Origin: Alphaproteobacteria bacterium
GTDB lineage: Bacteria; Pseudomonadota; Alphaproteobacteria; CAAGCB01; CAG-977
Length of the DNA: 51,417 bases
Direction: 5' to 3'
NCBI GenBank assembly: GCA_024413465.1
Contig: JAKSVU010000012.1
Span: forward strand, 1-51,417
The position numbers were made by a program, and so were the translations under genes. Shown in pieces: positions 38,154-51,408 of this stretch (positions are counted from its first letter, which is position 1; each line of letters starts with the position of its first letter). A model generated the notes under the pieces. The model had not been told where the DNA came from, made no database searches, and saw only the letters and a program-made list of their open reading frames with translations.

Positions 38154-38230
38154 GCGCCCATAGCTCAACTGGATAGAGCATCTGACTACGGATCAGAAGG
38201 CTGAGCGTTCGAATCGTTCTGGGCGCGCCA
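38154..38230 (+). tRNA. tRNA-Arg (ACG), target of integration
   Basis: 77 bases with CCA encoded. Acceptor GCGCCCA pairs perfectly with TGGGCGC; D arm GCTC/GAGC; anticodon stem TCTGA/TCAGA around CTACGGA, giving ACG; T stem GAGCG/CGTTC with loop TTCGAAT. It reads CGN codons. The 46 bases from the last anticodon-stem base to CCA (38185-38230) are repeated exactly at 51363-51408, so the 3' half of the working gene was brought in by the integrated element. Confidence 0.97.
38185..38230 (+). repeat. left attachment site (attL) within tRNA-Arg
   Basis: Identical over 46 bases to 51363-51408; it starts in the anticodon arm and ends with CCA. The base before differs (G here, A in the right copy), which limits the crossover to inside this block. 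Confidence 0.92.
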
Positions 38231-40425: not shown

Positions 40426-40794
40426 ATGAAATTATTTAGTATTAAAGAAACAAGCTCTTTCTTAAAAATTGGAAAATCAACTTTATATCGATTAATAGCT
40501 TCTGATCAGACATTTCCACCATCAGTAAACACTACTTCTGATAGAAAGAAATATGATAAACAAGCTTTAATAAATTGGATAAATTTAAAAGCTCAAACCG
40601 AGTATCCAGATCTTACATTAGTGGATATAAAAGGTATTCAGGAAATGTTAAATGTATCTTATTCAACTTATCATAAATGGTTGCGTTTAGATGAATTTCC
40701 AAAACCAATTATTATAGCAGGAAAGATATTGTATATCGAAGAGATGATTAAAAATTTTATCAAGAAACTTAATGGAGAACTAGCAAATGCATAA
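40426..40794 (+). CDS. tandem double AlpA-type helix-turn-helix protein
   Basis: 122 residues with two similar DNA-binding units. The first is at about 1-55 (FSIKETSSFLKIGKSTLYRL with a following strand wing), the second at about 65-115 (LVDIKGIQEMLNVSYSTYHK, then KPIIIAGKILYIEEMIKNF). Two fused AlpA/HTH_17 units could bind a direct repeat, for example the paired motifs upstream of rep. AAGGAG lies 8 bases before the ATG. Its stop overlaps the next start (8 bases). Probably a regulator or replication accessory protein of the element. Confidence 0.65.
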   Translation: MKLFSIKETSSFLKIGKSTLYRLIASDQTFPPSVNTTSDRKKYDKQALINWINLKAQTEYPDLTLVDIKGIQEMLNVSYSTYHKWLRLDEFPKPIIIAGKILYIEEMIKNFIKKLNGELANA

Positions 40795-41469: not shown

Positions 41470-41898
41470 TTATAGTTCTTCTGATGGTTTCATTTCTGCA
41501 TAATATGAGTTTGGGAAGTAATCAACCCATCTATCATCCATATACTGGTACAATCCAATCATACTTGGAATAAATAATGTAACACAGTTATATAAAAAAC
41601 CTAAAAAAAAATCTTTTAAATTAAATTTTTCGGAAATTTCTCTATTCATAATATATTTTAGTTCTATTTGTTGTGTTTGATAACCAAAGGATTTTAATTC
41701 AACTTTTGTTTTCGTTGATCTAGTTATTCTACCTTTAAAAGGCGTACTTCCCCTATAAACATCATTAATATACAATTTTGCAGAAATATTTGAATCTATA
41801 AAAATCATTTGTTCAGAATCTAAATTGTTCATTGTACAACAACCAAATAAATTAATTGAAGATAAAAAAATAATTAGAGATAACAATTTTTTTTTCAT
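41470..41898 (-). CDS. PEGA-domain lipoprotein
   Basis: 142 residues. Signal peptide with lipobox LFGC (MKKKLLSLIIFLSSINLFGC). A PEGA-type surface domain follows: ISAKLYINDVYRGSTPFKG then KTKVELKSFGYQTQQIEL. A hydrophobic stretch (LGFLYNCVTLFIPSMIGLYQ) near 100 may dip into the membrane. PEGA domains occur in surface and cell-wall-linked proteins. It is the last gene of the cargo operon, 2 bases after the PEGA-repeat gene, and likely works with it. Confidence 0.7.
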   Translation of the reverse strand: MKKKLLSLIIFLSSINLFGCCTMNNLDSEQMIFIDSNISAKLYINDVYRGSTPFKGRITRSTKTKVELKSFGYQTQQIELKYIMNREISEKFNLKDFFLGFLYNCVTLFIPSMIGLYQYMDDRWVDYFPNSYYAEMKPSEEL

Positions 41899-41900
41899 TA

Positions 41901-43805
41901 TTAAATTTCCTCAATAAAAATCTGGATTTTATTAATTTGAGACTCATTAATATCTTCAACCACCACATCAAATAACAAACTTTCTGAACCACACTTAAAG
42001 GATACACCACTTTCAAAGGGTCTTCTTATTGTACAAAAGGATTTATCTTTTTTTTGAAGTAGTGGTGAAAAAAATAAATTTTTTTTATCTTCGTAAAAAG
42101 GTCTTAACCAAAAAGGAATATCCACATTTTTTACCAAATTGTTTTGTTTATCAAAAATTTTAACAACAACTTTTAATTCATTTAAACTTTCTTTTGGTCT
42201 ATCTATTGCAGAAGAATGTGAAAATTTATAAAAAATTGCGGAATCATTTAAGCGATTATGAGTAATTTTTCCATTTCTAATAAACGTATTTCCCCCAAAA
42301 TCTTCAACAAAAACATTACCACACCAAATACCAATATCTTCTGGTTTTACAGTACAATTCATATTAAGAATGCTTGTATCGCCTTTAACCAAAAATTTTG
42401 ACAAAATTTTTCTTAACGGATTTACATAATTTTTCAAATAAAGTTCATCATCAAAATCAATCTTTACATAAAGAATAATTTGGCCTTGATTGTTCTTATA
42501 TGAAAAGGAGGGCTTTAAATAAGACCATCCTAAATTACTAATTAAATCTGAATATCCTAAATTATTTAATATCTCAACATTTGAACTATACATATTATAT
42601 TTATCAAATATATTAATATTACTTTTCGTTGACGATATGACAAACAAATGATTTTTATCTTTTAAAGTACTATTAATTTCTCTTTCTCTGATTTCTGATT
42701 TTTTTTTCAAGGTAAAATCTAATTTTTTTTCTTCACCTGCCTTTATAGTAATGCTAGAATTTTCTATTTCATAACCAGGTAAACGTAATGAAATAATATG
42801 TTCACCCTCTGGAATTGTATAATTTATAACCGGTGTATTTTTTTCAATAAGTTTATCATCTAAATATATTTTAGCTCCAGAAGGTTTTGAAAAAATATTA
42901 ATCTTTGAAGGTTTCTTTTCTAAAAATAAATTTATTACTTTATTTTCATCTTTTTCTAAAACAATTTCCTTCGCAAAAGAATAGGCATATTTGCTTTCAG
43001 CTTTTATTATTGAAGCTCTTCCTGCTTGTAGTTTTACTCCATACATTGGAGCTTTCCCTATTTTTTTGCTATCTACAAATATGTATGTATCATCAACATT
43101 CGAAATTATATCCAAAAAACCATATCCTTGTTTTAATCGAACTTTTAATTTATTTTCAATATTTGGATAAATATGAACATTACTTGTATATGTTTCAAAA
43201 AAAGGAGAAATTATTTTAATTTGGTGAATCCCTGGATTTAATTTTCCAACAATTCGTATGGGAACCTCTCCGTATCGTTCACCATCGATATATAAATCAG
43301 CAGAAATACCATATGTATCGACAGTTAGAATACCTTTTTTAACATCATTTCCAATTGTAGATACTTCTTTTTTTTCAGAATTTTTACTTAATTCATCAAG
43401 ACGCCTTTTTTCTTTTTCTATTTCTTTCTTGGGGTAAGCATATAAAATATTATATTCCCATAAGTCATCTTTTTTTAATGCATACTCATCTTGCTTTTCA
43501 AACGAAACTAATATGGCTTTTGATTTTATTTCAAGCCTATCAATAACATCTACTTGATTAAATGTTTGATTAGCTTCAAAAGAATTTTCTATTTTTTCTC
43601 CAAATATCGCAATTGCTTGATATCTTACATCTTTTTCTGCGTTATATTTAGCTTCTGATTTTGTTTTACCTTCTCCCCAACCTTTAAAATATTTTACACT
43701 TTCTGTATCTTTTAAAGGTTTGTAAACCCAATGAGGCACTTCATTAGCAAAAACACTACAAGATAAAAACAAGTACGCAATAAAAAATAAAAATTTTTTT
43801 CCCAA
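41901..43805 (-). CDS. secreted multi-PEGA-repeat protein with LPP20-like N-terminus
   Basis: 634 residues. Signal peptide (MGKKFLFFIAYLFLSCSVFA), then an LPP20-like or FlgT-N-like domain (FKGWGEGKTKSEAKYNAEKD near 41-60), then several PEGA repeats (about 160-370; each ends in the ITIKAG/KLDFTL type), then about 260 residues of unrecognised beta-rich sequence. The PEGA part has the A-x-L/I-Y-I/L-D motif three or four times. It probably sits in the periplasm or on the cell surface. It shares the LPP20-like theme with the upstream lipoprotein, so the two may interact. Confidence 0.7.
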   Translation of the reverse strand: MGKKFLFFIAYLFLSCSVFANEVPHWVYKPLKDTESVKYFKGWGEGKTKSEAKYNAEKDVRYQAIAIFGEKIENSFEANQTFNQVDVIDRLEIKSKAILVSFEKQDEYALKKDDLWEYNILYAYPKKEIEKEKRRLDELSKNSEKKEVSTIGNDVKKGILTVDTYGISADLYIDGERYGEVPIRIVGKLNPGIHQIKIISPFFETYTSNVHIYPNIENKLKVRLKQGYGFLDIISNVDDTYIFVDSKKIGKAPMYGVKLQAGRASIIKAESKYAYSFAKEIVLEKDENKVINLFLEKKPSKINIFSKPSGAKIYLDDKLIEKNTPVINYTIPEGEHIISLRLPGYEIENSSITIKAGEEKKLDFTLKKKSEIREREINSTLKDKNHLFVISSTKSNINIFDKYNMYSSNVEILNNLGYSDLISNLGWSYLKPSFSYKNNQGQIILYVKIDFDDELYLKNYVNPLRKILSKFLVKGDTSILNMNCTVKPEDIGIWCGNVFVEDFGGNTFIRNGKITHNRLNDSAIFYKFSHSSAIDRPKESLNELKVVVKIFDKQNNLVKNVDIPFWLRPFYEDKKNLFFSPLLQKKDKSFCTIRRPFESGVSFKCGSESLLFDVVVEDINESQINKIQIFIEEI

Positions 43806-43866
43806 ATTAAATATCCAATAATTTCTTAGGACGAAGAATAAATCTCCGTCCTAAAATAATCAAAAA

Positions 43867-44493
43867 TTAATATTTATCAGTACTTTTACCAAAGGCGTAA
43901 CTCATTGTCCGTTGGTTAATAGCCTTTGTTACATCAGACAATTTCTTTCTGGTAAGAGCTTCTTCAAATTTTTCACGAGATAAAACATTAATTGTGTACA
44001 CTCTACGTACAATTTTTGTTCCATTCTCATCTGTAACAGCTACTCTTTCCCAATAAGTACCAGCTTTTATCATTCCACTAACTGAAGCTTCATTTAAAAT
44101 TGACAGCGTATATGATGCCTCTTGACTATTTAAATTATAATCTTGATTCGCTTGATTAAAAGCTCCTGAAATTTTACTTTTCACTGCAGCTGCAAAATTA
44201 CGTTTTGCCTGAGCCTCTGCTGCAACTGTAATCATATTTGTATTTGTGTTAGATTTTTCAGGAACTTCATAAAAACCAACAAAACATATATTTTTTGCTT
44301 GAGAATTCTTTGAAATATATGCCTTATCTTTTGACGAATAATCACAGGGATACCCATCTTGAGATTCTTTAGCCCATTCAGGAGCTTTAGTCAAATGATC
44401 CGAACGTGATAAAACTTGATCTTCTGTAAAGGAAATTGATGAACAACCAAATAATACAAGAACAATATGTAATAAAATTAGATTTTTTTTCAT
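43867..44493 (-). CDS. LPP20-like lipoprotein
   Basis: 208 residues. Lipobox LFGC at 15-18 after MKKNLILLHIVLVLFGCSS. After a short linker, the core ICFVGFYEVPEKSN and AEAQAKRNFAAAVKSKISGA resembles the LPP20 family of outer-membrane lipoproteins, in which an alternating Ala-rich helix follows a strand. The role is unknown. It is followed after 61 bases by the PEGA-repeat gene. Confidence 0.65.
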   Translation of the reverse strand: MKKNLILLHIVLVLFGCSSISFTEDQVLSRSDHLTKAPEWAKESQDGYPCDYSSKDKAYISKNSQAKNICFVGFYEVPEKSNTNTNMITVAAEAQAKRNFAAAVKSKISGAFNQANQDYNLNSQEASYTLSILNEASVSGMIKAGTYWERVAVTDENGTKIVRRVYTINVLSREKFEEALTRKKLSDVTKAINQRTMSYAFGKSTDKY

Positions 44494-44507
44494 AATAATC
44501 TACTCCA

Positions 44508-46328
44508 TCAAATAGCACACCCTCTTAATCCTGTAATTTTGCCATCTTTTAAAACTTTGACATCTGTATCTCTAAAATAGCTTTTTATTTTATTCTCTAT
44601 CTTTTTCATAGCTCGTAACGCTACATGTTTCGGAATAACTTTGCAAAATTTAACCTCAAAAATATTACCTATTTGTGAAATACCTTCTCCAAATATTGGT
44701 GAAATAGCAGGTGCATACAGACCAAATGCTTCTACATATTCACCAACTTTACAATAATCAAAAGCCTTTGTATTCACTTTATTTTCGATGAAAAAGACCT
44801 TATCCAGCAATTTTGAACCAGAAGAAATATATCTTTCAAATTTTGAATATTTCCCTGTTCCTATTTGTTTCTCTATAATTTTCCCGAACATAATATTTTC
44901 ATCACGTTTAGCTAATTCCTTTGCATCACGAAGATCTCCTCCATATCTAACCCAATCTTCTATATCTCCTTTATAACATCCAAGTCTTTTATAATTTAAA
45001 TAATTATCTAAACTCTCTAATTTTGTATCAATATATTTATCCATATATTCATTATAGCCTTGTTCAAATAATTTTTTATATTGAGGATTGTTGTGATAAT
45101 CAAATCTTGAAATTTTATAAAAATCAATGATTGAAGACACATTCTTGTAACGAACAGTATCGCCAACTTTTACATCTTTTGATTTAATCTCTCCTTGCTT
45201 TTTGTATTTTGTTAAAATTTCGTATCCTTTATCGGTTTCTGATATAATCTTTGATATTATATCATATCCCTCAACTCCCCAATATTTAGAAGCACCATTC
45301 GGTAGCCATTCATTCATTTCCCTCAAAGCTGTAAATTCTCCTGACATTTTTGCCATTTTATAAAGATTTTCTGCTATTTGTTTTGATTCTTCATTATTCT
45401 TATTCACAATTCTTTGTTGTTTTTCTTGCTCAATTTTAATTTTTTCTTGTTCAATTTTAATTTTTTTATCGTTTAATTTACTTGCTAATTTTACCTCATA
45501 TTCTGGAATTTTTTGTTTTTCTACTTGACTTATTTCATATTCATGACAACTTGAATTATAACATCTAACAAAAACATAATCTCCATTTTGACCATTGAAA
45601 ATTATTCCATTAGTAGATCTGTATCGAGATATTCCATCCAAACTTTCTACCATATAACCACTCAGAGAAGTACCTGAAGAATATCCATCCGTAACTCTTG
45701 CATAACCACAATAATTTTCTTTACCGAACTCTGTGTCAGGACATCTGTTTATATTTTCGTCATATTTCTTATTATATATTTCTTGCCCATTTTTTATCCA
45801 GTAATCACTTTCACGATTTATTATACTTATTAATCTGTTCTGCTCACTTTTTGATATAAAATAAGTATCTAATAATTTCTTTTGAAGCTTCTTATTCTCA
45901 TTAACTGTGTTAAAAAAACTATAATATATGCGATCTAAAAGATTGTTTTTATAATATAAATTAAAGGTAGAATATTTATTATCTTTTTCTATACGAATAT
46001 CATCTCTATTGATACTTTTAGATATAGAAAATAATTTGGATGATTCTTTACTAAAACACTCTGGAATATAAGGTGTTCCGTTTTTTTGATAATTTTCTTC
46101 TACATCCCTTTTTATATCTTCTTCCTTTAGACGGAGACTTCTAAATTTTTTCAATGATAAAGTACATGCCAACTTATTAGGTAAATAACTAGCTATTTCT
46201 TCTGATGTTAATGTATCATTTACTAATCCTAATGAAGCACACGAAGTTATAAAACAAATCGATATCATTACGGTAGTAATATTTTTTAAAAGTTTGTTAC
46301 AATTTATTTGACAAAAAATCACTGACAT
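44508..46328 (-). CDS. large predicted lipoprotein of unknown function
   Basis: 606 residues. An N-terminal signal with lipobox ITSC (VMISICFITSCASLG, Cys near 30). The rest is Lys/Asn/Ser/Tyr-rich; CYNSSCHEYE and RCPDTEFGKENYCGY suggest disulfide pairs, and a Lys/Glu/Gln segment (KKIKIEQEKIKIEQEKQQRI) is a short coiled coil. SD AGGAGG lies 7 bases upstream of the ATG. 122 bases separate it from the protease gene, the largest gap in the operon, so it may have its own promoter. Not recognised. Confidence 0.6.
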   Translation of the reverse strand: MSVIFCQINCNKLLKNITTVMISICFITSCASLGLVNDTLTSEEIASYLPNKLACTLSLKKFRSLRLKEEDIKRDVEENYQKNGTPYIPECFSKESSKLFSISKSINRDDIRIEKDNKYSTFNLYYKNNLLDRIYYSFFNTVNENKKLQKKLLDTYFISKSEQNRLISIINRESDYWIKNGQEIYNKKYDENINRCPDTEFGKENYCGYARVTDGYSSGTSLSGYMVESLDGISRYRSTNGIIFNGQNGDYVFVRCYNSSCHEYEISQVEKQKIPEYEVKLASKLNDKKIKIEQEKIKIEQEKQQRIVNKNNEESKQIAENLYKMAKMSGEFTALREMNEWLPNGASKYWGVEGYDIISKIISETDKGYEILTKYKKQGEIKSKDVKVGDTVRYKNVSSIIDFYKISRFDYHNNPQYKKLFEQGYNEYMDKYIDTKLESLDNYLNYKRLGCYKGDIEDWVRYGGDLRDAKELAKRDENIMFGKIIEKQIGTGKYSKFERYISSGSKLLDKVFFIENKVNTKAFDYCKVGEYVEAFGLYAPAISPIFGEGISQIGNIFEVKFCKVIPKHVALRAMKKIENKIKSYFRDTDVKVLKDGKITGLRGCAI

Positions 46329-46450: not shown

Positions 46451-46969
46451 TTATTCAAACATTAAACCATTTGCTATTCCTAATTTTATTGCTTTTGATG
46501 AATTTATAATTGCGCCTTTTCCCTTCATAAAATAATTCCATTTTCTTGCAGAAATGTTTGAGTTTTCAGATAATAATTTGATAAAATTTAGCCTATCTTT
46601 TTTTAATGACTTTAATTCTTCTGTAAGAGAAGATATTGTTTGTGGTTTATTTAATTTTATTTGTAATGGATGTGTATAAAAAGTTGCAACACCTGAAACA
46701 AAACGTTTTTGTCCTAAAAGAAATAATAGAATGGCTGCTGAATCACAATATCCAACGTTGTATGTTATAATTTCTAAATTTTTTATTGTTTTTATAAAAT
46801 TAAATAAACCGATAGTAACAGAAACTACTCCTCCATGTGAATTAATATAGAGTGATAATTTTCGAACATTACTATTTTCGTAAATGCTCTGAATCAAAGG
46901 TCTTACATTCTCAGTAGAAATGCTACCTTGTAAATAAAAAGATATACTATCATCAAATTTCCCCATCAT
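46451..46969 (-). CDS. ClpP-like serine protease, catalytic Asp not evident
   Basis: 172 residues with the ClpP/crotonase fold. An oxyanion-type HGG (45-47) after YINS, the catalytic Ser at 77 in GYCDSAAILLFLLG (compare GQAASMGAFLLAAG of ClpP) and the catalytic His at 100 in FYTHPLQI are seen. The region that should hold the third residue (Asp near KxxxEDTERD in ClpP) reads ARKWNYFMKGKGAIINSSKA, with no Asp at the aligned spot. It is likely a protease with a Ser-His dyad or altered acid. It directly follows the RiPP precursor (28 bases), so processing of the precursor or of the lipoproteins is a fair guess. No Clp ATPase is near. Confidence 0.7.
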   Translation of the reverse strand: MMGKFDDSISFYLQGSISTENVRPLIQSIYENSNVRKLSLYINSHGGVVSVTIGLFNFIKTIKNLEIITYNVGYCDSAAILLFLLGQKRFVSGVATFYTHPLQIKLNKPQTISSLTEELKSLKKDRLNFIKLLSENSNISARKWNYFMKGKGAIINSSKAIKLGIANGLMFE

Positions 46970-46997: not shown

Positions 46998-47288
46998 TTA
47001 TCGCGTTCTTCCACTGCAAGATCCCTTGCACGTTGAATAACAACCACCCTTACATCCAGATCGACAACTCCCTGTACATTGAGAATCACACGTTCCTTTA
47101 CATCTTCCCGTACAATACGTTCTACAAGTAGTACTACAGGATGATCTGCATGTTCCAGAACAAGCTCCAGAACATTTTCCCATACAATTAAAGCTCATAT
47201 TTGCCTTTTCTGTAAATGTAAGATCTTTAATTGAATATTCATTTAACAAATTTTGTATTTTTTTTAATTCTTCTTCACTTATTTCCAT
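46998..47288 (-). CDS. CXXX-repeat RiPP precursor, 15 cysteines at exact period four
   Basis: 96 residues. Residues 1-34 form a Glu/Lys/Leu-rich helical leader (MEISEEELKKIQNLLNEYSI) without Cys. Residues 35-91 contain Cys at 35, 39, 43, and every fourth residue to 91: 15 in total with no slip. Between them are mostly Ser, Gly, Thr, Arg and Lys, for example CSGACSGTCRSSC. Such tracts are substrates of radical SAM peptide maturases of the CXXX-repeat target type, which install thioether links. GGAAAG precedes the ATG; it starts 11 bases after the radical SAM gene, as expected for a substrate. No GG site marks the leader end. A simple metallothionein would not need the neighbour enzyme nor this rigid spacing, so a modified peptide is favoured. 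Confidence 0.85.
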   Translation of the reverse strand: MEISEEELKKIQNLLNEYSIKDLTFTEKANMSFNCMGKCSGACSGTCRSSCSTTCRTYCTGRCKGTCDSQCTGSCRSGCKGGCYSTCKGSCSGRTR

Positions 47289-47299
47289 ATTTTCTTTCC

Positions 47300-48451
47300 T
47301 TATATTTGAAATGGGTAATTTCTATCTTTTATTTGTTTAATCAATTCAATTGTCCTCAAAGATTTTTTTAGGTGTTGAACATCTTCAATAGATAATTCTT
47401 TCTTTCGTGCTGCTATTAATTTAATTTGAAAAATAGATGAAATACGAGCTTCTTCTAAATGAAGTAAACATTTTCGCTTATCTCTTGTTCCTAAATTCCC
47501 CCTATACTTGAAATTAAAACCAGCACACGTCGGGCAAAAATGTTTCAATATACACTTGTTACAGATATCATCATTTACGATTGAACATTTTTTGAAATTA
47601 ATATCTTTTATTTTTATCGCTTTTTTTCCTAGAACAATTGGACTAAACATATGACATCCATAAGATTGTCCATCTGGATCATATGCTGTCATAAATGTTC
47701 CAGTCCCACAGTATTTGGTAATTTTTTTCTTATCTTTCCGAGGATCTACTACATAATTTAATCTAGTTAAAAGATTTAAAGGTTTTATATCAGGAAAATC
47801 TAAATAAAATTGCGCTAATTTTTCTAACTGATTTTGATATAAAACAACATCATATTTATCCCAATTAATGCCTTCAGCTAAGGAGGCTTCAATTTTATAT
47901 CCTTTTTTTTGAATATAAATAATTCCATCAGCCATTTTAGGAAGAGTTTCTTTAGATATTGTCATATGTAATCCCTGTTTAGGCCAAGTTTTACAAAAAA
48001 AATCTAAATCAACATCAGTAGCACCTTCACCACGATTAGTTTTTTGCATATCTGTATTACCATCAAAACTACAACTACATACTATTGATTGTTTATGTTT
48101 CTTGAACCACTTTTTTTCTTTATCGTGAAAAAGAGTTCCATTTGTCGTTATTGAAAAAATATAAGGAACATCAATATTGCCTGAATCTGCCCATTCAATA
48201 AGTTGTTTTATAAGGGGAAAATTCATCATAGGTTCACCACCCATTAAATCAATCTCTAACCCCACATTTTTTTTACTTTGTTTTACTTTTTTTATCTCTT
48301 TTTTTATGAGAAATATTGCAGTTTCAAAATTCATTTTTTTTGCTGATTTATATTTTTCATAGCAATAAGAACAATTTAGATTACAATTATGTGTAATCAT
48401 TAACATACAAATTCTTCTAACTTCTTGTTCTTTGTCCCATAAATTTGTCAA
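47300..48451 (-). CDS. radical SAM/SPASM peptide maturase
   Basis: 383 residues. Start TTG 48451 with AGGAG 9 bases upstream (no good ATG before the cluster). The SAM-binding [4Fe-4S] motif CNLNCSYC is at 23-30, GGEP at 71-74. The C-terminal SPASM part carries Cys 248, 266, 289, 297, 300, 306, 309, 328 in the arrangement C...GCH...C..C....CPTC...C for two auxiliary clusters. CPTCAGFNFKYRG and RDKRKC fit the CXXX-repeat-target radical SAM family as I recall it. Such enzymes form thioether (Cys S to carbon) crosslinks. It is the first gene of the cargo operon and adjoins its likely substrate. Confidence 0.88.
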   Translation of the reverse strand: MTNLWDKEQEVRRICMLMITHNCNLNCSYCYEKYKSAKKMNFETAIFLIKKEIKKVKQSKKNVGLEIDLMGGEPMMNFPLIKQLIEWADSGNIDVPYIFSITTNGTLFHDKEKKWFKKHKQSIVCSCSFDGNTDMQKTNRGEGATDVDLDFFCKTWPKQGLHMTISKETLPKMADGIIYIQKKGYKIEASLAEGINWDKYDVVLYQNQLEKLAQFYLDFPDIKPLNLLTRLNYVVDPRKDKKKITKYCGTGTFMTAYDPDGQSYGCHMFSPIVLGKKAIKIKDINFKKCSIVNDDICNKCILKHFCPTCAGFNFKYRGNLGTRDKRKCLLHLEEARISSIFQIKLIAARKKELSIEDVQHLKKSLRTIELIKQIKDRNYPFQI

Positions 48452-48653: not shown

Positions 48654-49265
48654 ATGACAATATACGCATATATTAGAGTTAGCAGTGATAAACAAAATTG
48701 TGACAATCAACTTTCTGCAATCAATAACTTTGCATCTGAACATAACATGAAAATAGATAAATATGTTCAAGAAACAATTTCCTCTAGAAAAGCTATTGAA
48801 AAAAGAAAAATTACAAACTTATTTAATAAACTAAAACCATCTGATACACTGATTATTACTGAAATAAGTCGTCTTGCCAGAAACCTTTATGAAATTGCAT
48901 CATTACTTCAAGCTGCCATTAATAAAAATGTTGAAGTAATTAGTATAAAACAAAACTATAGCTTTAAAAATGATCTGCAATCCAAAATAATGGCATATAC
49001 TTTTGGACTTGCTGCTGAAATAGAACGAGATCTTATTTCCACCCGAACGAAAATGAGTTTAGAAAAGTTAAAAGAACAAAATATTAAACTAGGCAGACCT
49101 CTTGGTGCAAAATCAAAAAAGCTAAAATTATCTTCCAATTTAAAAAAGTTAAATGAGCTTCTGAACAAAAAAATCAGTAAAAGAAAAATAGCAGAAACAT
49201 TGGGTGTCGATAAAACAACAATTTACAGATTTATCAAAAATAATCCGACATTAATTAATGTGTAA
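48654..49265 (+). CDS. serine recombinase (resolvase/invertase type) 1
   Basis: 203 residues. Catalytic Ser in YIRVSSDKQ near residue 9-10, EISRLARN near 75, AEIERDLISTRTK with the conserved helix E, and a C-terminal helix-turn-helix (SKRKIAETLGVDKTTIYRFI). Full-length and intact. AGGAG precedes the ATG. It diverges from the radical SAM operon across a 202-base AT-rich gap that holds a 10-bp inverted repeat (48563-48572 and 48587-48596). It may resolve element multimers or invert a segment. Confidence 0.9.
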   Translation: MTIYAYIRVSSDKQNCDNQLSAINNFASEHNMKIDKYVQETISSRKAIEKRKITNLFNKLKPSDTLIITEISRLARNLYEIASLLQAAINKNVEVISIKQNYSFKNDLQSKIMAYTFGLAAEIERDLISTRTKMSLEKLKEQNIKLGRPLGAKSKKLKLSSNLKKLNELLNKKISKRKIAETLGVDKTTIYRFIKNNPTLINV

Positions 49266-49375: not shown

Positions 49376-49468
49376 GCTATTTTTACATTTAACGACACCT
49401 TTTGTCTCCCATACCTGTTAAATTAGTAAGTAATCAGAGAGATACTATATGTTATATGGAGAATGGCT

Positions 49469-50026
49469 ATGAGTAAGATTGGATATGTAAGAGTTTCAAC
49501 TGTAGATCAAAATACTGACAGACAATTATCAGATGTAGCTTTAGATAAAATATTTGAGGATAAAGCTTCTGGAAAAAATACACACAGACCTCAATTACAA
49601 GTTATGTTAGATTATATTAGAGAAGGTGATGAAGTTTTTGTTCACTCAATGGATCGTCTTGCTCGTAATGTGAAAGATTTGCTTGAAATTATAGAGATTA
49701 TCAAAAATAAAGGTTCAAAATTAACATTTGTCAAAGAAAAGATGAGTTTTGATCCAAATACAAATGAAAATCCAATGCAAACATTAATGTTAACTATGCT
49801 TGGTGCTATTGCTGAATTTGAACGTAAGATTATTTTAGAACGCCAAAGAGAAGGTATAGCTATTGCTAAAACAAAAGGTGTTTATAAGGGAACAAAAAAA
49901 GTTTTATCTGTTACAGAGATTAATCTGTTAAAAGAAATATTCAACAAGAAAGAAATGTCTGTTGCTGAACTTGGAAGGAAGTTTAATATTTCAAGAGCAT
50001 CTGTTTATAATTATGTAAAAAAATAA
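49469..50026 (+). CDS. serine recombinase (resolvase/invertase type) 2
   Basis: 185 residues from ATG 49469 (GGAGA 7 bases upstream; the earlier ATG at 49463 is too close to it). KIGYVRVSTVDQNTDRQL at the start with the catalytic Ser, DRLARNVKDLLEI, MLTMLGAIAEFERKIILERQ, and a C-terminal helix-turn-helix (MSVAELGRKFNISRASVYNY). It resembles Tn3-type resolvases and Hin-type invertases. It is convergent with the integrase. It is clearly distinct from the first recombinase, so it is not a recent duplicate. Confidence 0.92.
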   Translation: MSKIGYVRVSTVDQNTDRQLSDVALDKIFEDKASGKNTHRPQLQVMLDYIREGDEVFVHSMDRLARNVKDLLEIIEIIKNKGSKLTFVKEKMSFDPNTNENPMQTLMLTMLGAIAEFERKIILERQREGIAIAKTKGVYKGTKKVLSVTEINLLKEIFNKKEMSVAELGRKFNISRASVYNYVKK

Positions 50027-50027
50027 A

Positions 50028-51200
50028 TTACCCTAGGTCATTTGGATCTTTCTTAAATATTACAGAAACTGCATCTTCCATAGCATTTTTAATAGCCCCC
50101 AAATTTAACCTTGCATATATTTCAGTAGACTTTAAAGATTTATGTCCTAAAGATTTTCCAATAATAGTTTCAGTGTTTCCCATTATAGCTTCATAACTTC
50201 CTACAGTTCTTCTCAGATCATGTATCCTTAAATTTTTAATACCAGCTCTTTGTATAATTCTCTTCCATGCATTTTTAAGATCAACTACATGCCCTATTTC
50301 AGTGTTAGAATAAAAAACATATTCATTTTGTTTTTTATCTAATAACTCTTTAAAAAAAGGTACAGCATCTTCAACAATTGGAACATTTCTAGGTTTCCCA
50401 TTTTTTGTCTTACTTATATGTATATGTTTATGTTTACTAATTAAATCAACATCTTCCCATTTTAAAGCTGAAATCTCATTTTTTCTGCACCCAGTAGCCA
50501 ACAGTATTAAAAAGTAATTTTTAATATAAACATTTGTTTCTTTATGTATTGAATCAAATAAATAATCAAATTCATCTAACTGAATAAATCTATCCCTATC
50601 TTCCGTTGGATGTTTTGTAATACATAAAGCTGGATTTTCAATATTTAATCCCAACCCTTTCTTTTCATCTATAACATAATTAAAAAAAGCTCTAGCTGTC
50701 CTAAAAAAACTATTTGCCTGATATTTATAACCTTTTTTTGTAATATCTTTAAAAATTTTAGACATGATTTCTTTGGTTATTTCATTAATTGCTTTATCAA
50801 AATATGGTGATAAATACAGAATAAAAGCCCCTAAAGCCTTATCAAATTGTTTTTCTGTTCTATTATGAGACATCATATAATATTCTTTATATTTTTCAAA
50901 CACATTACCAAGTGAATCAAAGTTTTCTTTTTTAATATTAATATTTTCACCCTTTTCAACTTTAAGAGCCAATTCATTTACTAAGCTTCTAGCAATATCT
51001 ACTGTCATTGTAGGAAATGTACCTACTTTCTTTTTGTAATCTCTATTTGAATATTTCTTTCTAAAATAGAAAATTTTATTACCATTAGGTGAAACAATTA
51101 ACTTTAAATTCTTGTTTTGTATATCTGTATATTCAACAATCTTATTTTGGCAGTTAATATTAGTAATACTTGCTTTAGTAAAATTAAAAATGTTCTTCAT
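50028..51200 (-). CDS. tyrosine recombinase / integrase of the element
   Basis: 390 residues. An N-terminal DUF4102-like arm-binding domain (IFYFRKKYSNRDYKKKVGTF), a SAM-like core-binding domain (about 90-190), and a catalytic domain with the full set: Arg in ATGCRKNEISALKW, Lys in KTKNGKPRNVP, HDLRRT (H-x-x-R), GHKS (His), and nucleophile Tyr in STEIYARL. Intact. It should insert the element in the tRNA-Arg 3' end. Its start is about 160 bases from the right repeat, and its promoter overlaps the repeat at 51211-51237, so autoregulation is possible. Confidence 0.95.
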   Translation of the reverse strand: MKNIFNFTKASITNINCQNKIVEYTDIQNKNLKLIVSPNGNKIFYFRKKYSNRDYKKKVGTFPTMTVDIARSLVNELALKVEKGENINIKKENFDSLGNVFEKYKEYYMMSHNRTEKQFDKALGAFILYLSPYFDKAINEITKEIMSKIFKDITKKGYKYQANSFFRTARAFFNYVIDEKKGLGLNIENPALCITKHPTEDRDRFIQLDEFDYLFDSIHKETNVYIKNYFLILLATGCRKNEISALKWEDVDLISKHKHIHISKTKNGKPRNVPIVEDAVPFFKELLDKKQNEYVFYSNTEIGHVVDLKNAWKRIIQRAGIKNLRIHDLRRTVGSYEAIMGNTETIIGKSLGHKSLKSTEIYARLNLGAIKNAMEDAVSVIFKKDPNDLG

Positions 51201-51362: not shown

Positions 51363-51408
51363 ACTACGGATCAGAAGGCTGAGCGTTCGAATCGTTCTGG
51401 GCGCGCCA
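51363..51408 (+). repeat. right attachment site (attR), tRNA-Arg 3' half
   Basis: Exact copy of 38185-38230, ending GCGCGCCA. It is the displaced original 3' end of the tRNA; it lacks acceptor 5' strand, D arm and promoter, so it is not a tRNA gene. Confidence 0.92.

Follow-up and report, generated by a model that had tools for sequence, protein, structure and literature searches.

A putative CXXX-repeat RiPP operon with a ClpP-like partner gene on an alphaproteobacterial integrative element

A peptide with fifteen evenly spaced cysteines, encoded next to a radical SAM gene in a gut-type alphaproteobacterium, raises the question of whether it belongs to a known CXXX-repeat system or to a RiPP family of its own. 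The locus lies in a stretch of 51,417 nucleotides, contig JAKSVU010000012.1, termed here the window. An earlier note had described it as a minimal two-gene CXXX-repeat system on an integrative element. As judged from its genes, it is a real RiPP operon on a mobile element and belongs to an unnamed, ClpP-linked clade that falls outside the curated cut-offs of the known families.

The operon and its precursor peptide

Three genes form the cassette, listed in their order of transcription:

47300..48451, minus strand: radical SAM/SPASM peptide maturase, 383 aa, TTG start (conserved motifs, NCBIfam models, predicted structure)
46998..47288, minus strand: CXXX precursor peptide, 96 aa (period-four cysteine count, TIGR04114 match, leader alignable with those of relatives from several phyla)
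46451..46969, minus strand: ClpP-like serine protease, 172 aa, putative leader peptidase (PF00574, predicted fold, synteny)

The TTG start of the enzyme gene has an AGGAG motif 9 bases 5' of it. The precursor gene begins 11 bases past the enzyme stop codon and is followed, 28 bases further on, by the ClpP-like gene, which the earlier note had missed. Promoter-like sites are not commoner than in shuffled sequences, and the only terminator-like site found is on the wrong strand.

Residues 1-34 of the precursor are a leader devoid of cysteine. The core has 15 cysteines at residues 35, 39 and so on to 91, all gaps being of exactly four, in full agreement with the earlier description of this gene and its position. 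An Asn-rich stretch that is conserved among relatives immediately precedes the first cysteine. The peptide scores 27.2 bits against the CXXX precursor model TIGR04114 (cut-off 20), and both leader and repeat are kept in relatives; on these two grounds the repeat is to be regarded as far beyond chance.

The core contains one Asp and no Glu, and every +4 position through the last cysteine is itself cysteine. Across 24 precursors the period-four units follow the pattern C-[K/S/R]-G-[S/T/G]: the second variable position is Gly in 76 of 121 units, while the third is Ser or Thr in 66, Gly in 24 and Asp or Glu in 4. Ser, Thr and Gly are thus retained around the cysteines of the relatives' precursors, where His is scarce. 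SCIFF precursors have six cysteines, against 15 in the window. The two nearest relatives, L005 and L006, have 9 and 13, and other clade members 5 to 9; the repeat has grown in the subgroup formed by the window, L005 and L006.

The radical SAM/SPASM enzyme and its clade

The enzyme displays the motifs CNLNCSYC (CX3CX2C) and GGEP together with seven SPASM cysteines (C248-X12-G-X4-C266, C297-X2-C-X5-C-X2-C309 and C328). These features, already reported in the earlier note, are invariant across 15 homologues and identify a radical SAM/SPASM protein; Cys15 is an extra, eleventh invariant cysteine in the same set. The radical SAM family PF04055 is matched with 38.6 bits (cut-off 29.5). None of the curated NCBIfam cut-offs is reached, however. 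The best-scoring model is that of the PapB ranthipeptide maturase (NF047865, 122.6 of 340 bits), followed by the CXXX maturase TIGR04115 (106.7 of 350 bits; 87.7-101.6 bits for relatives) and the SCIFF maturase TIGR03974 (96 bits, under its cut-off). All three score far above the anaerobic sulfatase maturase model TIGR03942 (41.2 bits, cut-off 349.45), a group to which assignment would have contradicted the earlier reading. TIGR04119, the third component of the NCBIfam CXXX system (TIGR04114/TIGR04115/TIGR04119), has no separate counterpart here, its model giving a weak match within the C-terminal half of the enzyme itself (42.2 of 150 bits).

The predicted structure of the enzyme (pLDDT 86.8) has a radical SAM barrel that begins near residue 13, and its best match among solved structures is the SCIFF maturase CteB (PDB 5why and 5wgg). 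CteB forms a Cys-to-Thr thioether (PMC8326336, PMC11002830) and has an N-terminal RRE (PMC8326336). Unlike in CteB, no RRE (PqqD-like) domain was matched in a Pfam scan of the operon proteins, although a divergent RRE may be present. A defence function was rejected, the only hits being to pVip (viperin) at the radical SAM core, with no defence genes in the neighbourhood.

Single-sequence scans of the genome_contigs and viral_contigs collections gave no match. A two-sequence profile (A3) opened the family, with 18 enzyme relatives of 35-64% identity in genome_contigs, and genome searches added more. Precursor-like ORFs adjoin these homologues, as the CXXX reading of the earlier note had predicted. 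A close clade of 22 loci was defined, comprising the window, L004-L018, L103 and L106-L110, with repeat fetches counted once. Beyond the window, its members are found in Selenomonadales, Bacteroidales, Kiritimatiellota and Gastranaerophilales. The order enzyme, CXXX precursor and then ClpP-like gene is conserved in all 22 loci, the ClpP-like copy being incomplete in two of them (a short frame in L011, the contig end in L110), so that the description of the system as minimal does not hold. The loci of Bacteroidales and Kiritimatiellota also have a second radical SAM gene, placed between precursor and ClpP-like gene. An ABC exporter is encoded downstream in 12 of the 22 loci; none lies near the cassettes of the window, L005 and L006, and a C39 peptidase domain is missing from all three exporters that were scanned.

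The 20 ClpP-linked enzymes of a maximum-likelihood tree form one group (support 84/93), and the second radical SAM enzymes a separate one (98/94). Pairwise distances between enzymes correlate with those between ClpP-like proteins (r = 0.91 over 171 pairs, uncorrected for species relatedness). No ClpP-like gene was seen beside 16 more distant enzymes within the flanks covered, which span only about 1.5 kb for most of them, and several of these enzymes adjoin Cys-rich ORFs. No counterpart of the ClpP-linked clade was found in the profiles and the limited literature searched.

Several of the loci have further features. The Cys-rich, precursor-like ORFs next to distant enzymes (L019:6737-7102, L020:8480-8644, L126:1242-1418 and L128:1095-1367) have repeats such as SCMSSCGSNYSS; these enzymes come from Planctomycetota, Lentisphaerota and relatives, the flanks read show no ClpP-like gene, and the systems are possibly sister families. 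Small lipoproteins with DnaJ-like CxxCxGxG repeats are encoded between enzyme and precursor in Bacteroidales-type loci (L010:9177-9536, L017:1672-2028, L018:9254-9592) and are possible export or immunity partners. The MAG of L018 is labelled Bacillota; its enzymes group with those of Bacteroidales and a SusC-like gene follows, a mismatch that either mis-binning or recent transfer would produce. L005 and L006, both from Gastranaerophilales-like genomes, encode related proteins 3' of the cassette (L005:10932-11945 and L006:11287-12234), of which the L005 copy has a J-domain and also matches a TonB C-terminal domain.

Searches of the viral contigs gave no relatives with the ClpP-like alignment, and relatives of at most 38% identity with the enzyme alignment, so nothing points to the system being carried by phages. 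L004 (MT836223.1), from human faeces, is labelled 'Bacteriophage sp.'. The fragment resembles Bacteroidales DNA, carries SusC/SusD-type genes as well as a complete ClpP-linked cassette, and is likely to be a misassigned host scaffold.

The mobile element and its host

The cassette resides in an element whose boundaries and recombination functions are as follows:

38154..38230, plus strand: tRNA-Arg(ACG), the integration target, whose 3' end (38185-38230) is one attachment-site copy (tRNA call, repeat)
51363..51408, plus strand: second attachment site, an exact 46-bp copy of the tRNA-Arg 3' end (repeat family D2)
50028..51200, minus strand: tyrosine integrase at the inner edge of the element (PF00589, E 2.5e-25; arm-binding domain PF13356)
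40426..40794, plus strand: AlpA/excisionase-type HTH protein of the element (PF12728, PF05930, phrog_66)

The two exact 46-bp repeats, 13,178 bp apart, and the integrase bear out the earlier proposal of an integrative element, here of 13.2 kb and borne by a tRNA gene. Its GC content of 26.7% compares with 34.1% for the remainder of the window. The region 3' of the operon (41470-46328) codes for a lipoprotein-like protein of 606 aa, a 208-aa protein and two PEGA-domain proteins; profile searches assigned no family to the 606-aa and 208-aa products. Two divergent serine recombinases of the resolvase/invertase type (48654-49265 and 49463-50026) adjoin the enzyme gene, and one of them resembles the Mpi family of master DNA invertases. 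Recombinases are also found just upstream in L005 and L006, a serine recombinase being near the L006 cassette, and another is present on the L022 contig, which has a cut-off enzyme.

The host is alphaproteobacterial, as the earlier note had proposed: it has the alpha_tmRNA RF01849, which among 14 control genomes is matched only in Caulobacter. Since no 16S was found in the genomes examined, taxonomy was based on this RNA and on MnmG identity; the host MAG likewise yielded no rpoB. Among 12 genomes of the order and among 385 sampled from the class, the host is in each case the single carrier of the enzyme. The nearest relatives, L005 and L006 (62-64% enzyme identity), were considered as alphaproteobacterial and rejected, because they are devoid of alpha_tmRNA and their MnmG is 67-68% identical to that of Gastranaerophilales against 44-45% to that of the host. 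As the nearest relatives sit in another phylum, it is very likely that the window system was acquired horizontally.

The ClpP-like protein and a proposed maturation pathway

The 172-aa product of the third gene is a member of the Clp family (PF00574, 44.1 bits, cut-off 20.2). Its AlphaFold model (pLDDT 92.0) finds ClpP structures as best matches in the PDB (Foldseek, E 5.8e-13, TM 0.81-0.87). The protein resembles housekeeping ClpP in predicted fold and in its Ser and His residues, but it is encoded in a RiPP operon, scores only 20.3 of 308.6 bits with the housekeeping model TIGR00493 and aligns without the N-terminal stretch of E. coli ClpP. The nucleophile Ser77 and His100 are kept in all 21 aligned copies, and the GG motif, Trp144 and Gly152 are invariant in the family. 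The triad Asp is Gly in each of the 20 copies readable at this position; the Ser-His-Asp triad is therefore incomplete and protease activity is not assured. A normal ClpP is encoded elsewhere in all five RiPP-carrying genomes checked (the host and four other carriers), which makes the ClpP-like protein an extra, specialised copy. Because of its shortened N-terminus, it probably acts independently of a Clp ATPase.

Whereas the genes, the repeat, homology, the predicted folds, conserved synteny and the mobile element are observed, thioether formation, its acceptors, leader cleavage and export are inferred, as steps of the following pathway. Recruited through its leader (residues 1-34), the precursor would be modified by the radical SAM/SPASM enzyme, with 5'-deoxyadenosyl radicals serving to link Cys sulfurs to carbons of neighbouring residues. 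Within the C-x-G-[S/T] units, Ser/Thr (or Gly) would most likely be the acceptors, and the core would come to hold a row of up to about 15 thioether rings. Next, the ClpP-like protein would remove the leader near the conserved Asn-rich stretch and, in most relatives, the product would be sent out through the ABC exporter. The cassette of the window has no such exporter, so any export route would be encoded elsewhere in the genome.

Thioether chemistry is favoured by the nearness of the enzyme to the PapB, TIGR04115 and SCIFF models and to the CteB structure. PapB places several thioethers in one peptide, as is proposed for the enzyme here, and it joins Cys to Asp or Glu in Cys-X3-Asp/Glu (PMC9413430). 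Its rule cannot apply to the window repeat, where the +4 position is always cysteine. The composition of the units and the lack of Asp/Glu at +4 point to Ser/Thr/Gly as likely acceptors, by analogy with Thr in CteB. The role in leader removal is favoured by synteny, the distance correlation, the single clade and the conservation of Ser and His, and the missing C39 domain of the three scanned exporters implies the need for a separate leader peptidase. Known RiPP leader peptidases include S8, S9, C39 and other types (PMC10885120), to whose function that proposed for the ClpP-like protein would be analogous. Against the joint mechanism count the Gly in place of the triad Asp, the RRE not found in the enzyme and the repeat without PapB-type acceptors. 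On balance, we hold it to be rather probable that thioethers are formed onto Ser/Thr/Gly and that the ClpP-like protein then takes off the leader. The more specific proposal of a distinct RiPP family, with an ATPase-free ClpP-type leader peptidase relying on a Ser-His dyad and a 15-Cys thioether ladder onto Ser/Thr/Gly acceptors, is put forward tentatively.

The conserved synteny would also be compatible with the ClpP-like protein acting as a regulator or chaperone. The protein may be a pseudo-enzyme that serves as ring scaffold or chaperone for the long precursor, or as immunity or regulatory factor, leaving the leader to host proteases. The Gly at the position equivalent to Asp172, the missing N-terminal region and the invariant Trp144 and Gly152 speak for such a role; a dead scaffold would have no need for invariant Ser, His and GG motif, though, and the housekeeping ClpP of Prevotella has Asn where the triad Asp is expected, showing that this Asp is not always retained. 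We regard the pseudo-enzyme as unlikely, if worth keeping in mind. The regular spacing of 15 cysteines and the absence of Asp/Glu acceptors of the freyrasin type would also suit a Cys-rich metal-binding peptide with most thiols free, the enzyme carrying out for example epimerisation or C-C linkage. The proximity of the enzyme to the thioether-forming CteB and PapB groups, the Ser/Thr/Gly preserved around cysteines and the few His make this product a doubtful one.

Much less room is left for the view that the operon is simply one more NCBIfam CXXX maturase system. The precursor does pass TIGR04114, as the CXXX label of the earlier note implied, with a thioether-type enzyme adjoining it, and TIGR04115 is second among the enzyme models; that label does not extend to the maturase, far under its cut-off, nor to the partner gene, which is ClpP-like and not TIGR04119, and membership is very improbable. 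That the element carries the three genes as decaying cargo without a product could be argued from the missing exporter and the rarity of the enzyme in the order, but all three frames are intact, conserved residues are retained and the enzyme is 62-64% identical to copies in another phylum, so that decay hardly merits belief.

If the ClpP-like protein is indeed a leader peptidase, a well-known degradative protease fold would have been put to dedicated use in RiPP processing, a role for Clp/S14 proteases that is absent from the leader peptidase review PMC10885120 and from the literature searched. The combination of enzyme, ClpP-like protein and leader motif provides a bioinformatic handle for more than 20 unstudied gut and rumen peptides, and the range of 5 to 15 cysteines within the clade opens ring number and acceptor choice to direct testing. 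The locus is also a very likely case of a RiPP cassette having passed from one phylum to another by means of an element that integrates into a tRNA gene.
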